Below are positions 4,417 through 12,163 of a stretch of 12,163 nt of DNA, in pieces. Position numbers and translations under genes: made by a program. The stretch is from Lentihominibacter faecis (GTDB lineage: Bacteria; Bacillota; Clostridia; Peptostreptococcales; Anaerovoracaceae), in contig NZ_JACRWC010000040.1 in assembly GCF_014306095.1 (NCBI RefSeq), positions 1 to 12,163 on the forward strand, read 5' to 3'. Numbering within the stretch: the stretch's first letter is position 1; every line of letters starts with the position of its first letter. The notes under the pieces were generated by a model. The model was not told the DNA's origin. It worked only from the letters and a program-made list of their open reading frames with translations, and did not search any database.

Positions 4417-4659
4417 CTATTCGATGACGCGGTACATTTTTACCGCATCTTCTTTCCTGCAGGATTCCAGAAGCGCCACGACTTCCACACGCAGGCTGCC
4501 GTTGCCGAACTGAACGAAGATCTCATCTCCCTCCTGCACTTCAGCACCAGGCTTGGCTGTTTTATCATTGAGCAGGATCCTGCCCTGCTCACAGGCTTCT
4601 TTCGCGACTGTTCTTCTTTTTATGATCCTGGAATTTTTTAGAAACTTATCGATTCTCAT
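4417..4659 (-). CDS. rqcP: RqcP (YabO), S4-domain ribosome quality control factor
   Basis: An 80-residue S4 RNA-binding protein. MRIDKFLKNSRIIKRR (1-16), VAKEACEQGRILLND (18-32) and VQEGDEIFVQFG (41-52) follow the pattern of Bacillus YabO, now RqcP, and E. coli Hsp15. The known role of RqcP is to bind obstructed 50S subunits with RqcH and drive C-terminal Ala tailing of stalled nascent chains. Its length matches the family. The ATG overlaps the upstream gene's TAA by one base (TAATG), so the two are translationally coupled; a weak GGGAAGG lies about 10 nt upstream. The HU–RqcP proximity is familiar in Clostridia, but the intervening NimA-like gene is unusual. The gene ends 17 nt before a strong terminator. 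Confidence 0.92.
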   Translation of the reverse strand: MRIDKFLKNSRIIKRRTVAKEACEQGRILLNDKTAKPGAEVQEGDEIFVQFGNGSLRVEVVALLESCRKEDAVKMYRVIE

Positions 4660-5129
4660 TATTTTGATGCCTTCCCAGTCATATGATCTATTTTAAATCT
4701 TAACATACTGATCTTGTCGATCGCTGCATTGATATATTCCAGACCGGCTTCACGATGATCCGGACTGATTTTTAACGCCAGCGCTTCGATGGCACTTCGT
4801 TTTTCTGCAGCGTCTTTCACAACATCTACCGTTCCGAAGACCGTTACGGATCTGTACTTTGTTGCAAACTTCTCCGGCATCAGTTCCACGGAGTCCACGA
4901 TGCTGAAACATGCATTGTGATTCCTGGCGATGTTGTCCAGTTTGTGACCGACGTCTTTAGCACAGTGGAAATACAGTGCACCATCTGTGTATACGAAGTT
5001 CAGCGGTGTGATATATGGTGTGCCGTCTTCACTTATGGTTGCCAGAGAGCCATATTCTGCCTCCTCCAGAGCCTTCAGGCATTCTTCCTCGGAGATCATC
5101 CTGTCTTTTCTTCTCATTTCTCTTTTCAT
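4659..5129 (-). CDS. NimA-like pyridoxamine 5'-phosphate oxidase family protein (flavin split barrel)
   Basis: A 156-residue protein of the FMN-binding split-barrel superfamily, most like the NimA-related group. Supporting segments are an N-terminal MRRKDRMIS (5-13), GSLATISEDGTPYITPLNFVY (27-47) for the flavin-binding barrel, and LYFHCAKDVGHKLDNI (52-67), which usually contacts FMN phosphate. Substrate is unknown. Relatives include 5-nitroimidazole reductases and many uncharacterised flavin or haem binders, so drug resistance should not be assumed. I chose ATG 5129 because GAGGTGG (5141-5135) lies 5 nt upstream. A GTG at 5138 would add three residues but overlaps that site. The gene follows the HU terminator by 30 nt, with no separate promoter visible, and is coupled to rqcP. 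Confidence 0.85.
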   Translation of the reverse strand: MKREMRRKDRMISEEECLKALEEAEYGSLATISEDGTPYITPLNFVYTDGALYFHCAKDVGHKLDNIARNHNACFSIVDSVELMPEKFATKYRSVTVFGTVDVVKDAAEKRSAIEALALKISPDHREAGLEYINAAIDKISMLRFKIDHMTGKASK

Positions 5130-5158
5130 ATCAGCCACCTCATATGTTCCTATGTTAT

Positions 5159-5193: not shown

Positions 5194-5472
5194 TTATTTG
5201 TTTACAGCATCCTTTAATGCTTTACCTGCCTTGAATACTGGAGCTTTAGAAGCATCGATTTTGATCACTTCTCCCGGTTTTCTAGGATTTCTTCCCTGTC
5301 TTGCTTTTCTCTGGCGAACTTCAAAAGTACCAAATCCGATCAACTGTACTTTTTCTTCCTTGACCAGTGCACTCTCTACGCTGGATACGAAAGCATTTAC
5401 AGCCAGTTCTGCATCCTTTTTAGTAAAACCAGTTTTTTCTGCTACTGCAGCTACTAATTCAGCCTTATTCAT
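5194..5472 (-). CDS. hup: HU family DNA-binding protein
   Basis: A 92-residue nucleoid protein, the standard length for Firmicute HU. It starts [16 protein letters not shown], carries the GFGTFEVR signature (46-53) and the DNA-intercalating arm with RNP at 61-63, and ends in the usual lysine-rich helix. It acts as a dimer, bending DNA and compacting the nucleoid. The ATG at 5472 has an ideal AAGGAGG (5487-5481) with 8-nt spacing. A longer reading from 5511 would add 13 unrelated residues and bury this site, so it is rejected. The gene has its own promoter and terminator and is probably strongly expressed. RRKPGE-type wording is slightly altered here (RNPRKPGE instead of the commoner RNPQTGE). 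Confidence 0.96.
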
Positions 5473-5528
5473 CAATAAATCCTCCTTAAAAATAATAACG
5501 AATAGTTTCAACTATCGTTTTTATAACA

Positions 5529-7282: not shown

Positions 7283-8569
7283 TCACAGTCTCCCAAGAAT
7301 ATTTTTTGTTGCTGTAACAGCCTCGAACAGCACACGTTCTATATCTATTGTACAGTAATCACCGTTTTCATATACCACTTTTCCATCGATCATAGTCATT
7401 AAAATGTCGCTTCCCGATGCCGAGTAGACGATATTGTTGACCATGTTGTGCACCGGATGCATATTAGGCACCGAAAGATCCATCACGATCAGATCTGCAC
7501 GATTGCCTTCCTTCAGCACACCGCAGTCTCCGCGCCCCTGCGCCTTTGCACCACCCAGCGTCGCCGCCCGGATCACCTCTTCCGGCGTCACAGCTGTTGG
7601 ATCATCCGCCGCGATCTTGCCGCCGATCGCCATCAGCTTCATTTCCTCCACGAAGTTGAGACTGTTGTTGCTGGCCACGCTATCGGTGCCAACAGCAACC
7701 TTCACGCCTTCACGCAGCAGTCTTCCGCCATTGCATATCCCGCTGTCCAGCTTCATATTGCTGACCGGATTTAAGGCGACGGTCACTCCTTTGCGCCGAA
7801 AGATCTCCAGATCCTCCTCCGTCGCATAGACACAATGAGCTGCAACTGCCGGCACATCGAAGATCCCGCAACTCTCCAGATACGCCGCAGGCGTTTTTCC
7901 ATGACGCCCAATGCATTCTTCATGCTCCTGTTTCGTCTCCGATACATGCACCTGCATCCTCGTATCGATGCCGCGTGCGTAATCAGCCAGTGCACGTGCG
8001 GTTGCCGGATCCGAAGTGTATTCCGCGTGAAGGCTCATATCCACCAGGATCCGCCCATTTTCGGCTCCATTATAATCTCTGTAAAAATCTTTTGTCTCCT
8101 GCATACTCACAAGGCTGCGTGGATCCTCCCCTGTGACGTTGGCGATGGATCTTGCAATATTTCCCTTCGCCCCGCTGTCTGCAAAAGCTCTGGCCATATC
8201 ATCGCAGAAGTAATACATATCGCTTGTGGACACGATCCCGAATCGGAACGATTCTGCCAGAGCCAGCATGGTGCCCCAGTAAACGGCATTGCCATCCAGT
8301 TTTGCCTCAAACGGGAAGATTTTCTTGTTGAGCCAGTCCTGCAGTTTCAGATTTTCTCCATATCCACGCATAAGCGTCATTGGCGAATGGGCATGAGCGT
8401 TATAAAATCCGCTCATAAGCAGTTTGCCTCTGCCGTCGTATTCCCGTTCCCATTCTCCTGCAGGGCGCTGTGCACTGATCGAAACGATCTTCCCATTTCG
8501 AACTGCCACATAGCAATCCTCCTGCAGTTTCAGATTTTCATCCAGTATATTGATTTGTTTAAAAAGCAT
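7283..8569 (-). CDS. Amidohydrolase family protein, SAH/5'-methylthioadenosine deaminase-like
   Basis: A 428-residue TIM-barrel metal-dependent hydrolase of the TRZ/ATZ–MtaD group. Visible metal and substrate motifs are NAHAH (57-61, HxH), MRGYGENL (67-74), IFPFEA (84-89), H181 in SLHAEYT, HVSET (208-212), AAHC (243-246), NPVSNMKL (267-274) and GTDSVASNNSLN (294-305, catalytic D296). The pattern fits deamination of S-adenosylhomocysteine or 5'-methylthioadenosine to the inosyl forms, linking methyl-group recycling to purine salvage. Related guanine or triazine hydrolases cannot be excluded. The ATG at 8569 has AAGGAGGAG just upstream. The gene begins 20 nt after the cls stop and ends 3 nt before the flippase, so it is the middle gene of a tight three-gene operon. 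Confidence 0.87.
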   Translation of the reverse strand: MLFKQINILDENLKLQEDCYVAVRNGKIVSISAQRPAGEWEREYDGRGKLLMSGFYNAHAHSPMTLMRGYGENLKLQDWLNKKIFPFEAKLDGNAVYWGTMLALAESFRFGIVSTSDMYYFCDDMARAFADSGAKGNIARSIANVTGEDPRSLVSMQETKDFYRDYNGAENGRILVDMSLHAEYTSDPATARALADYARGIDTRMQVHVSETKQEHEECIGRHGKTPAAYLESCGIFDVPAVAAHCVYATEEDLEIFRRKGVTVALNPVSNMKLDSGICNGGRLLREGVKVAVGTDSVASNNSLNFVEEMKLMAIGGKIAADDPTAVTPEEVIRAATLGGAKAQGRGDCGVLKEGNRADLIVMDLSVPNMHPVHNMVNNIVYSASGSDILMTMIDGKVVYENGDYCTIDIERVLFEAVTATKNILGRL

Positions 8570-8589: not shown

Positions 8590-10149
8590 TTACATCAGCG
8601 GTGCGATCAAACGCAGGATCTGACCTGCCAGTTTGGCGATCGGATTATATTTTTTACAGTTTTCCAGATCAATACGCTGACATTTCTCTAACGTATGAAA
8701 AAAGTCAAGTTCAATATCATTGATCACAGGGTTTTTCCAGATATACGCAGCACACTCAAAATGGAGATACAGGCTCCGGTAGTCCAGATTGATGGTCCCT
8801 ACCACAGCACGTTCGTCATCACATGTGAAAACCTTGGCGTGTACAAATCCCGGTGTATATTCGTAGATTTCCACCCCATTGCTGATCAGCTGCTGATAAT
8901 AAGTCCGTGCCAGCAGATAGGCATATTTCTTATCCGGGATATGCGGCAGGATCAACTTTACCTCTACCCCTCTCTGTGCTGCAAAGATCAGGGCATTGAT
9001 CATTTCTTCATCGATGATCAGATACGGTGTCATGATATGTACATAATCCTGCGACCTGTTGAGGATATCAAGGTATACCTTTTCACCCACATCCTCATCG
9101 TCATACGGGCTGTCTCCGTAGGGAACGACATATCCGCCATTTCGCATTCCGCGATCGATGACAGAGGTGTACTGCATGTATTTACTGTAATCTTCCTTTT
9201 CCTTCACGTTGATATTCCACAGCTGCAGAAACATCAGTGTAAAGCTGTTGACCGCTTCTCCCTGCACCATGACGGCAGTATCTTTCCAGTGGCCGAATCG
9301 TTCTTTTCGATTGATATACTCATCTGCCAGATTCACGCCGCCTGTGAAAGCTGCCCGCCCATCGATGACCGCGATCTTTCTATGATCCCGGTTATTCTGA
9401 TGCGTAGATAAAAACGGTCGCATCGGCGCAAAGATTTTACACTGGATACCCAGTTGTTCCAGACGTTTCGGGTAATTTCGCGGCAAAAGGGACAATGTAC
9501 AGGTGCCATCATACATAAATCGCACTTCCACGCCTTCTCGCGCCTTGCGCGCCAGAATCCTCAGGATCCGGTTCCACATGATGCCTTTATCCACGATGAA
9601 ATATTCCAGAAAAATAAACTTCTCAGCACGTTCCAGCTGGTACAGCAGTTCCTGAAATTTATCCTCTCCAAGCGGGAAATATTTTACGCTGGCATTGCTG
9701 TAGACCGGATACTTGCCCCGTTTATATAAATACTGCATGAAACCGCATTCCTGTTTCGACTCTGCATACACATCATACAGCGTGTCTTTATGCGGTGTCA
9801 GATAGTCCTTTTCTTCTTCGATCAGCGCATTGACCCGATGAGAGATATAAGCCGTGCCCGGCTGCACTCTGGTGAAAATATAGAAAGCCACTCCCACGAC
9901 CGGCACCACCAGGATCAGTATGATCCACATGAGCTTGAAACTCGAATTGCTTCTGGCATTGAGAATGTAGATCAAGATGATGACGGCCAGAAGACCGATG
10001 GTATAGTTGACGATCCAGGCACTCTTATCGATGAGGGCAAACCCTCCAAACAGGATCACTGCCTGCACCAGCAGCAGGAAAACCAGTATCCCTGTTCTGC
10101 CAAAAATCAGTTTCCATAATTTCTTTAATTTTTCCAGTTGTTTTTTCAT
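8590..10149 (-). CDS. cls: Cardiolipin synthase (phospholipase D family)
   Basis: A 519-residue membrane enzyme that condenses two phosphatidylglycerol molecules into cardiolipin and glycerol. Three hydrophobic helices occupy about 20-40, 48-64 and 73-93. Two complete HKD active sites follow: H256-K258-D263 within DHRKIAVIDG, followed by FTGGVN, and H437-K439-D444 within VHAKVFTCD, followed by GTINLD. Length and layout match the standard Firmicute Cls. I place the start at ATG 10149 because AGAGG lies 7 nt upstream. A TTG at 10167 or ATG at 10155 would extend it slightly but with badly spaced ribosome binding sites. First gene of an operon with the deaminase and flippase, divergent from spoVT. 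Confidence 0.93.
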   Translation of the reverse strand: MKKQLEKLKKLWKLIFGRTGILVFLLLVQAVILFGGFALIDKSAWIVNYTIGLLAVIILIYILNARSNSSFKLMWIILILVVPVVGVAFYIFTRVQPGTAYISHRVNALIEEEKDYLTPHKDTLYDVYAESKQECGFMQYLYKRGKYPVYSNASVKYFPLGEDKFQELLYQLERAEKFIFLEYFIVDKGIMWNRILRILARKAREGVEVRFMYDGTCTLSLLPRNYPKRLEQLGIQCKIFAPMRPFLSTHQNNRDHRKIAVIDGRAAFTGGVNLADEYINRKERFGHWKDTAVMVQGEAVNSFTLMFLQLWNINVKEKEDYSKYMQYTSVIDRGMRNGGYVVPYGDSPYDDEDVGEKVYLDILNRSQDYVHIMTPYLIIDEEMINALIFAAQRGVEVKLILPHIPDKKYAYLLARTYYQQLISNGVEIYEYTPGFVHAKVFTCDDERAVVGTINLDYRSLYLHFECAAYIWKNPVINDIELDFFHTLEKCQRIDLENCKKYNPIAKLAGQILRLIAPLM

Positions 10150-10184
10150 ATACATACCTCTGCGCAAACCTCGCCTATGATAAA

Positions 10185-10213
10185 ATGTTACTGCAAGAAC
10201 CTCGAAAAGTCAA
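10185..10213 (-). promoter_or_regulatory. Promoter of the cls operon (SigA-type)
   Basis: On the minus strand, TTGACT (10213-10208) and TAACAT (10190-10185) are separated by 17 bp, about 36 bp before the cls start codon. A second possible pair further upstream, TTGTCT (10252-10247) with TATACC (10230-10225) at 16 bp, overlaps the spoVT control region and is weaker. Confidence 0.65.
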
Positions 10214-10226
10214 AGATTTTTACAGG

Positions 10227-10253
10227 TATAATTGTCCAGTTTTTACAGACAAT
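10227..10253 (+). promoter_or_regulatory. Candidate spoVT control region: TATAAT box and ATTGTC/GACAAT dyad
   Basis: A TATAAT hexamer at 10227-10232 precedes spoVT by about 50 bp but lacks a recognisable -35. It overlaps an inverted repeat, ATTGTC (10231-10236) and GACAAT (10248-10253), spaced by 11 bp. In Bacillus, spoVT is transcribed by SigG in the forespore; I could not find a clear SigG-type -35/-10 pair here, so the promoter class is open. Confidence 0.35.
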
Positions 10254-10284
10254 AGACTTAGAAATTTTTACTGGAGGAAATAAT

Positions 10285-10776
10285 ATGAAAGCAACGGGAA
10301 TCGTAAGAAGGATCGACGATCTGGGGAGAGTAGTTGTCCCAAAAGAAATCCGCAAGGTCCTGCGGATCCGTGAGGGCGATCCTCTGGAAATCTATACAGG
10401 AACAGCAGGCGAAGTTATCTTGAAAAAATATTCACCCATCAACGAACTGGGGCAGATAGCCAAGAGTTTCGCCGAAACAGCCTCTACTGTGCTGGGGCTT
10501 CCTGTACTGATTTCCGATACCGACCGGTTCATCGCAGCTTCAGGGCTTCGCAAAAAAGATTATCTGAATCAGCAGATCGATACTGCGCTGGATGAGATCA
10601 TCCAGTGTAAAGAAAAGTCAAGGACTGCCTCAAGGCTTGTGGTTCCGATCCTCACCAATGGGGATCCCATCGGATCTGTGACCGTTCTTCCCACCGAAAA
10701 CCATGCGCTGACGGAAGCGGAAGTCAAAACAGCAGAACTTGGTGCAAAGCTTCTGGCATGCCAGATGGAGAATTAA
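10285..10776 (+). CDS. spoVT: Stage V sporulation protein T, AbrB-type forespore transcription regulator
   Basis: A 163-residue protein with an N-terminal AbrB/SpoVT swapped-hairpin DNA-binding domain, MKATGIVRRIDDLGRVVVPK (1-20), then EIRKVLRIREGDPLEIYT (21-38). A GAF-like domain of about 55-160 follows, as in B. subtilis SpoVT (178 residues). SpoVT modulates SigG-dependent genes in the forespore, and its presence indicates an endospore former. The ATG at 10285 has GGAGG (10273-10277) 7 nt upstream. The open frame extends to 10138, but that part overlaps the divergent cls start and lacks support. It lies alone on the plus strand and ends directly at a strong terminator. In Bacillus it neighbours yabM and rqcP, both of which have relatives in this window. 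Confidence 0.95.
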   Translation: MKATGIVRRIDDLGRVVVPKEIRKVLRIREGDPLEIYTGTAGEVILKKYSPINELGQIAKSFAETASTVLGLPVLISDTDRFIAASGLRKKDYLNQQIDTALDEIIQCKEKSRTASRLVVPILTNGDPIGSVTVLPTENHALTEAEVKTAELGAKLLACQMEN

Positions 10777-10839: not shown

Positions 10840-10882
10840 TATTGATCCCATAAAACTTCTCCGGCTTTTTCGGGCGTTTTGT

Positions 10883-11413
10883 TTACTCCTGTTCCAGATA
10901 AGTGATATACGGAAGATTCCGGTACTTCTGATCGAAGTCCAGTCCATAACCTACGATAAACCTGTCATCTACGGTAAATCCTATATAATCCACATCGATA
11001 TCCACTCTGCGCCCTTCCGGTTTGTCAAGAAGCGTACAGATCTTCACACACTTGGCATCGTGATTCTGCAGATACGCTTTCAGATAATTGAGAGTGGTGC
11101 CCGAATCCACGATATCCTCTACGATGATAACGTTTTTGCCACTGATATTGGTATCCAGATCCTTGTTGATCTTTACGACACCGGAAGATTTTGTTGATGC
11201 ACCATAGCTGCTGACTGCCATAAAGTCGATCACCATATCAAGGTTCACATTCTTCATGATATCCCCCATCCACAACACAGCGCCTCGCAAAATACCGATA
11301 AGGACTACTTCCTCTCCTGCAAAGTCCTTTTCGATCTGCTGGCCTATCTCTGCAGCCTTTGCATTGATTTCTTCCTGTGTGATCATAACTGTTCCGATTG
11401 TATCCTGATGCAT
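10883..11413 (-). CDS. hpt: Hypoxanthine phosphoribosyltransferase
   Basis: A 176-residue purine salvage enzyme that converts hypoxanthine (and usually guanine) with PRPP to IMP or GMP in the cytosol. The PRPP-binding loop IIVEDIVDSGTTL (96-108) is intact with both acidic residues. LIGILRGAV (38-46), SSYG (68-71) and RFIVGYGLDFDQKYRNLPYI (151-170) complete the family pattern. Length is typical for HPRT. The ATG at 11413 has AAGGAG 8 nt upstream. It lies 15 nt after the YkvA-like gene and is the last gene of the engB–ykvA–hpt group, facing the shared terminator near 10800. In Bacillus hprT usually sits with tilS and ftsH, so this position is different. Confidence 0.95.
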   Translation of the reverse strand: MHQDTIGTVMITQEEINAKAAEIGQQIEKDFAGEEVVLIGILRGAVLWMGDIMKNVNLDMVIDFMAVSSYGASTKSSGVVKINKDLDTNISGKNVIIVEDIVDSGTTLNYLKAYLQNHDAKCVKICTLLDKPEGRRVDIDVDYIGFTVDDRFIVGYGLDFDQKYRNLPYITYLEQE

Positions 11414-11428
11414 TGCGATTTCTCCTTG

Positions 11429-11773
11429 CTATTGGTTATTTTTGTCTTCCGCAGACTCTTCCTTTACTTCATATTCTACATCATCCACAAAGGTTTTTCC
11501 ACGGTATTTTTTCGAAAAATCTTTCGTCTTTCCTCCTGTCCAGTAACTGTCCAGCTCATTGCGCAAATGATAGAGAATAAACAGCCACAGCAGAAAATCA
11601 TCGATCCAGCCGATCGGAAACAAGATCGGCGGTATAAGATCGATAGGTAAAAACAGGTAAATGATACCGAAAACGATCAGCGCTTTCTTTCGTTTCGGAA
11701 CCGTTTTATCTGCCATCATAAAACGAATGGCCTTGATTCTTTTAAGTAATACCCGTATTCCCAAAAACTGCAT
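11429..11773 (-). CDS. YkvA/DUF1232 family membrane protein
   Basis: A 114-residue protein carrying the DUF1232 core: basic VPKRKK (25-30), then IIYLFLPIDLIPPILFP (37-53) and IGWIDDFLLWLFIL (54-67). The P-x-D-L-I-P...D-D pattern is the hallmark of this family. One or two hydrophobic helices suggest a small membrane protein; the C-terminal 40 residues are charged and poorly conserved in kind. The function of the family is not established. The ATG directly follows the engB stop (TAAATG, no gap), and its GGAGG lies within the last engB codons, so translation is likely coupled. The link to EngB or Hpt is positional only. Confidence 0.87.
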   Translation of the reverse strand: MQFLGIRVLLKRIKAIRFMMADKTVPKRKKALIVFGIIYLFLPIDLIPPILFPIGWIDDFLLWLFILYHLRNELDSYWTGGKTKDFSKKYRGKTFVDDVEYEVKEESAEDKNNQ

Positions 11774-12134
11774 TTAGTCCTCCAGTATTTCTTCCATGAC
11801 ATCAAGTAATTCTTCATATCCTGTCTTTTTCAGTGCTGAGACCGGGATCACCACGTCCTCTGCTGAAAGTTTCAAAGTCTGTCGGATCAGCTTGATCTGT
11901 TTCGGCAGCTGATTTCTGGAAATTTTATCTGCTTTGGTAGCTACAACGATTCCATCGAGTCCGAAATGACGCAGATACTGATACATTTCCACATCCTGTT
12001 TCGAAGGTGCATGGCGGATATCCACCAGCTGGATCACCTTTCGCAGGCTTTCCCGCTGTTCAAGATACCGCTCCATCATCTCGCCCCACCCTTCTGACAC
12101 TGATTTGGAAACCTTGGCATAACCGTATCCCGGC
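11774..12134 (-). CDS. engB: Ribosome biogenesis GTPase EngB/YsxC, 5'-truncated
   Basis: This is the C-terminal 119 or so residues of a TrmE-Era-EngA-EngB-like GTPase. Visible are the end of the G3 box (PGYGYAKVSKS), the EngB-typical LVDIRHAPSKQD, the G4 box TKAD in VATKADKIS, and the G5 region VSALKKTG. EngB assists assembly of the 50S subunit. The P-loop and G2, roughly 75 N-terminal residues, are missing because the contig ends. The open frame appears to continue to an ATG at 12151, but the residues MCIRDR there are translated adapter, not protein; genuine sequence stops at about 12134. The expected residue before PGYG is lost at the junction. First visible gene of the engB–ykvA–hpt group. 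Confidence 0.93.
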
Positions 12135-12163
12135 CTGTCTCTTATACACATCTGACGCTGCCG
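12135..12163. other. Illumina Nextera (Tn5) adapter sequence, non-genomic
   Basis: The bases CTGTCTCTTATACACATCT (12135-12153) are the 19-bp Tn5 mosaic end used in Nextera libraries, and GACGCTGCCG (12154-12163) continues exactly into the read-1 adapter. The reverse strand encodes MCIRDR, a well-known translated artefact. This end of the contig should be trimmed. Confidence 0.96.

Follow-up and report, generated by a model that had tools for sequence, protein, structure and literature searches.

The 29 terminal bases of the window (the whole 12,163-base stretch of DNA that was analysed) are almost certainly an untrimmed Nextera (tagmentation) adapter and not genome; adapter tips of this sort are familiar data errors and not a biological feature. 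Positions 12135-12163 match the 33-base Nextera read-1 transposase adapter exactly over 29 bases, comprising the 19-bp mosaic end and 10 bases of the adapter tail, with the outermost four of the 33 bases lying off the contig edge. The letters by which positions 12154-12163 were identified as adapter are those that we take to be the read-1 tail. On the plus strand, the terminus corresponded to the first 29 bases of the reverse-complemented 33-base read-1 adapter and the match reached the last base, 12163; with the window end taken as the contig end, the adapter is terminal and outward-facing. An exact terminal match thus bore out the original prediction of a Nextera adapter of 19 plus 10 bases retained at the contig end. 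Two papers (PMC4106830, PMC11075570) show the 19-mer as the sequence that Tn5 transposase recognizes. A second exact mosaic end was not detected elsewhere in the 12,163-base window. Chance as the source of the 29-base match is excluded, since a mosaic-end match at up to three mismatches was found in one of 200 shuffles, and since the reversed 29-mer had no match in a viral collection (IMG/VR) in which the true 29-mer had at least 120.

The gene that meets the adapter is engB, which is located on the minus strand and encodes the ribosome-assembly (ribosome-biogenesis) GTPase also termed YsxC/YihA (NCBIfam TIGR03598). As judged by its sequence, the engB of the window is a piece of an EngB/YsxC member and not a complete one. 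The open reading frame that starts within the adapter (the false ORF) covered positions 70-185 of the 186 in TIGR03598, and the fragment scored below the model cut-off of 124.45 bits in two readings (117 bits for the false ORF and 118.3 bits). By comparison, intact P0002, a 195-residue relative that represents a group of 336 sequences and whose longest contig has 205,558 bases, scored 228.9 bits. P0002 was identical to the window from Pro 77 to its end at residue 195, a run of 119 residues. The gene is therefore cut at the contig edge as predicted, with the first 76 residues of P0002 missing and the 5' part of engB that includes the P-loop lying off the contig. The G1 P-loop itself (GRSNVGKS, from residue 30 of P0002) falls within these 76 residues and is absent from the window.

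The point at which genome gives way to adapter was located to a single base. The genome extends to position 12134, a minus-strand G that occupies the third position of the D-L-P-G Leu codon, and the first full native engB codon is the Pro at 12133-12131 on the minus strand. The 29 bases had been predicted to be joined directly to the engB G3 box; the direct joining was confirmed, but the joint sits inside the G3 box, within the Leu codon. Where P0002 reads ...FRIVDLPGYG, the window equivalent is RQRQMCIRDRPGYG, and the G3 box of the window reads DRPG, in which the adapter supplies the D as well as two of the three bases that encode the R. A DNA search with 10880-12134 as query, without the adapter, gave matches in 166 of 197 genomes; the ten top-ranking places started at query base 1 or 2, such that similarity extended up to 12134 or 12133. 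The Leu codon aligned to 12134 was TTG, CTG, TTG and CTT in relatives L001 to L004, respectively; base 12134 (G) agreed with three of these four, and L004 carried T. Beyond the joint, the native sequence of the relatives continued differently from the window in both DNA and protein alignments.

Coordinates of the features of the window, with strand and basis of assignment
Feature	Position	Strand	Basis
5' end of 16S rRNA gene, cut by contig edge	1-121	-	Rfam RF00177, model 1-104 of 1533, 3' side cut off
Pyridoxamine-oxidase-like protein	4659-5138	-	NimABCDEF, NimIJ models
HU-type DNA-binding protein	5194-5511	-	
Amidohydrolase	7283-8569	-	
PLD-domain protein	8590-10167	-	
SpoVT-like regulator	10138-10776	+	191.5 bits, below cut-off 235.9
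Hypoxanthine phosphoribosyltransferase	10883-11413	-	
Genuine 3' part of engB: Leu third base, 119 codons from Pro, stop	11774-12134	-	TIGR03598; P0002 77-195
False ORF MCIRDR-PGYG..., 125 aa, chimera of 6 adapter-coded and 119 native residues	12151-11774	-	ORF list
Artificial joint, last genomic base 12134 / first adapter base 12135	12134-12135	.	DNA alignment with L001-L004, protein alignment with intact EngB
Nextera/Tn5 mosaic end AGATGTGTATAAGAGACAG, 19 bp, synthetic	12153-12135	-	0 mismatches
Read-1 adapter tail, 10 bases CGGCAGCGTC, directly outside mosaic end	12154-12163	-	10/10 bases match

The false start is an ATG inside the mosaic end (12151-12149, minus strand). Read from this ATG, the mosaic end encodes MCIRD followed by AG plus the first base of the insert, which gives R or S; the codon for the sixth residue of the false ORF accordingly takes two bases from the adapter and one from the genome. 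After MCIRDR the false ORF continues with the native PGYGYAKVSK, and its residues 7-125 represent the C-terminal three fifths of EngB (119 of the 195 residues of P0002). Upstream of the ATG this frame stays open as far as the edge of the contig, giving 129 residues that begin RQRQMCIRDR. A gene caller had been expected to report a complete 125-residue MCIRDR protein; the ORF exists, and this report is only one of two outcomes, as an open-ended partial gene is also possible. A GAC codon of the adapter coincides with the Asp that is conserved in the G3 box, and the D-R-P-G of the chimera fits DxxG. A motif scan limited to G3 would be misled by this DRPG, while a P-loop check would not. An alignment to EngB had been proposed in which residues from PGYG would align and those before would not: the first part held, and the second held with the exception of one chance residue, as the adapter-coded Asp meets the conserved Asp of D-L-P-G and the part before the joint is therefore not wholly unalignable.

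Intact relatives were informative as to what should precede PGYG. Among the best 120 of 5,662 protein matches, the two preceding residues were DL in 118 and DH in one, the motif was missing in one, and DR was found in none. The seven top protein matches were 194-197 residues in length and covered 97-98% of the query at 98-99% identity, and the eighth, P0008, had 185 residues and was without the DLPG stretch. Like P0002, P0001 and P0003 were identical to the window from the Pro of D-L-P-G onward. An open engB frame of 197-213 residues with no internal stop was present in 12 of 12 related genomes, which were picked for encoding an EngB relative.

A separate observation concerns the N-termini of P0001 and P0003, of identical C-terminal part, and of the nearly identical P0005, which were unlike P0002 up to the DLPGYG box. 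These three proteins are possibly metagenome-assembly chimeras joined at conserved motifs.

The placement of the adapter was next compared to its placement in the viral contigs, of which 80 read-1 loci and 82 read-2 matches were analysed as samples. Among the matches listed, the 29-mer lay within 100 bases of the locus end and faced outward in 79 of the 80 read-1 loci, 20 of which are partial stretches of contigs in which the locus end need not equal the contig end. The read-2 adapter lay no more than 100 bases from the locus end, likewise outward, in 81 of the 82 matches listed. When whole-contig loci only were counted among the matches listed, the adapter was terminal in 59 of 60 read-1 and 62 of 63 read-2 cases. 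The internal exceptions were L083 at 2158-2186 (one of the 80 read-1 loci) and L287 at 4953-4978 (one of the 82 read-2 matches), and these mid-contig copies may mark sites of false joins. The outer four adapter bases, TCGT, were present in 76 of the 80 read-1 loci. Translation from the mosaic-end ATG gave R as sixth residue in 54 of these loci and S in 26, and the MCIRD frame, a putative coding frame, was open for at least 60 residues in 15 of the 80 read-1 and 18 of the 82 read-2 cases of the sample.

The bases next to the adapter were compared with the insertion preference of Tn5, which favours G at position 1 and C at position 9. Insert position 1 was G in 36 of the 80 read-1 loci (background 0.24, P=3.5e-5) and position 9 was C in 30 (P=0.006), although the loci stem from a limited number of projects and are not independent of one another. 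The 9-mer of the window, GCCGGGATA, begins with G but has A instead of C at position 9.

On the plus strand, the parts are ordered as genome, mosaic end and read-1 tail, as would be expected from a read 2. We infer that the adapter entered by read-2 read-through and escaped by failed trimming. By this route, a library fragment ending inside engB would have been shorter than the read length, and the sequencer would have run past the end of the insert and on into the reverse-complemented read-1 adapter. The adapter would then have been left untrimmed and retained by the assembler as a contig tip, and the in-frame ATG of the mosaic end would have supplied the cut engB with its counterfeit N-terminus MCIRDR.

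Three alternatives to this explanation were weighed. The one that survives best is another laboratory route, namely an adapter-insert chimera or mis-merged overlapping read pairs in place of plain read-2 read-through. The contig-end orientation would presumably be identical by such a route, and internal adapter copies do exist elsewhere; however, short-insert read-through appears to be the simplest process that yields the observed order of parts, and we regard the other laboratory route as unlikely. Far less probable, to the point of being negligible, is that the source organism carried an engineered mosaic-end transposon, as in a mutant library, with the joint present in the cell. Laboratory Tn5 constructs do have the 19-mer at their ends, and translations of it such as LSLIHI and DVYKRQ have been published as linkers in engineered fusions. 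By contrast, the read-1 tail is present here outside the mosaic end and the contig ends within that tail, no transposon marker was found in the window, and several near relatives are uncultured animal-gut genomes (horse faeces for L002 and L006, goat caecum for L003), which makes an uncultured source likely. To our knowledge, there are no engineered mosaic-end constructs with a read-1 adapter tail outside the mosaic end. A genuine genomic origin of the 29 bases, either as a natural Tn5/IS50-type end or as a short in-frame EngB variant starting MCIRDR, is equally negligible: the ORF is open with an ATG and the chimeric protein still reaches 117 bits against the EngB/YsxC model, but the 10 outer bases are exactly the commercial read-1 tail with a match that stops at the contig edge, the P-loop is absent while full-length engB is open in all of the 12 related genomes, and the mosaic end was made in the laboratory by combining the Tn5 ends.

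The opposite end of the contig differs in kind. It cuts the 16S rRNA gene, and no exact mosaic end was found at this 16S rRNA contig end. The window is therefore probably a short-read contig, bounded by an rRNA operon on one side and by an adapter-tipped break on the other. The genes in between are ordinary bacterial ones. Among them, the protein at 4659-5138 scored 123.5 and 122.6 bits against the NimABCDEF and NimIJ nitroimidazole-reductase models, well below the respective cut-offs of 260 and 270, and the PLD-domain protein is presumably cardiolipin-synthase-like.

We also searched annotated records for the adapter. A copy of the 33-mer, complete or with no fewer than 29 of its bases, was detected in 26 of 50,697 records of a phage collection, a count in which some genomes appear under both GenBank and RefSeq, and the adapter was found in 8 of 72,556 plasmid records. 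It was found in none of the 20,395 records of RefSeq complete E. coli, a collection that looks clean at the sensitivity of that search. The adapter copy coincided with an annotated feature in 9 of the 26 phage records and with none in 13, the remaining 4 being unannotated records; for plasmids, a feature was present at the copy in one of 8. Internal adapter copies occurred in several phage and plasmid records.

Eight of the 34 phage and plasmid matches, mostly ones with a listed feature, were inspected. RefSeq YP_009909637.1 (Escherichia phage ev017, NC_049948.1; Lambda_ev017) has the mosaic-end ATG as its annotated start and opens with MCIRD. An open-ended partial CDS of Lambda_ev066 reads LSLRRQRQMCIRDS, and VUF54226.1 is an open-ended CDS that runs across the adapter. 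Other frames of the adapter were found in further proteins: CLLYTSDAADD near the C-terminus of the RefSeq phage terminase large subunit YP_009877169.1 (L205 from 1245 on the minus strand, NC_049386.1 1245-3053) and within WP_286497426.1 and QBQ77264.1, LSLIHI as the C-terminal end of the tail-fibre CDS QBQ77263.1, and VSYTHLTLPT near the C-terminus of YP_009909638.1. In two of the eight inspected records no annotated CDS lay over the adapter copy, with one copy under a 'similar to recombinase' note. A contig edge of this type can thus be annotated either with a false complete start or as an honest partial gene.

The forecast that the artefact would spread into protein databases was correct in kind, as YP_009909637.1 demonstrates, but was not supported for the window's own copy. 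The presence of the window's false protein in a large protein database was considered and not supported, as none of the best 120 of 5,662 matches to it starts MCIRD, although a 90% cluster such as that of P0002, with its 336 members, may conceal it. A search with the translation of YP_009909637.1 gave nine relatives in the large protein database, none of which starts MCIRD; this either speaks against easy spread or reflects an effect of clustering.

The adapter has no biological import, as engB is merely cut at the contig edge. Its weight for data quality is small: a 125-residue 'complete' EngB without a P-loop is wrong, and the Asp of its G3 box is faked. Trimming at 12134/12135 and marking engB as 5'-partial removes the error. 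More generally, we consider it somewhat probable that the mosaic end acts as a built-in counterfeit start, in which one frame in three yields a plausible 'complete' protein and MCIRD[RS], LSLIHI and CLLYTSDAADD are usable as audit tags. The counterfeit-start case applies to a cut gene that runs away from the contig tip, and a motif is sometimes faked (here DRPG). If this generalization is true, MCIRD[RS], plus the other-frame C-terminal strings LSLIHI and CLLYTSDAADD, would allow a simple database-wide audit of truncated proteins.

Several published cases are similar to the window. In the open-licence literature, which includes few subscription papers or bioRxiv preprints, no paper was found that names MCIRD as a sign of retained adapter. 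According to Moeller et al. 2024 (PMC11536531), adapter occurs at contig tips of MGnify genomes and is suspected of breaking contigs; it has one orientation where contigs end and appears as its reverse complement where they begin, and 1,110 of 15,657 MGnify species assemblies are enriched (P<0.01). The window resembles these cases in that adapter is retained at a contig tip. It differs in that the study counts a TruSeq 12-mer, whereas the adapter of the window is Nextera and its consequence is a false protein start; 'Nextera' and 'protein' each occur zero times in its main text. The closest likeness is to YP_009909637.1, which shares with the window a start at the mosaic-end ATG. In ev017 the final base of the mosaic end deviates (a match to 32 of the 33 adapter bases, compared to 29 of 29 in the window), the copy is set 75 bases in from the end of the record, and the product is annotated as a phage hypothetical protein. 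Engineered Tn5 fusions also contain mosaic-end translations: PMC4106830 gives LSLIHI and DVYKRQ as linker residues, PMC11075570 a DVYKRQ linker with LSLIQI for the other end in a figure legend, and PMC3066235 linker peptides such as CLLYTS...MCTRDR/S, the latter a near relative of the MCIRDR/S of the window. The peptides of engineered Tn5 and EZ-linker systems are, as described there, deliberate insertions in cloned genes, whereas that of the window is a sequencing left-over at a contig end.
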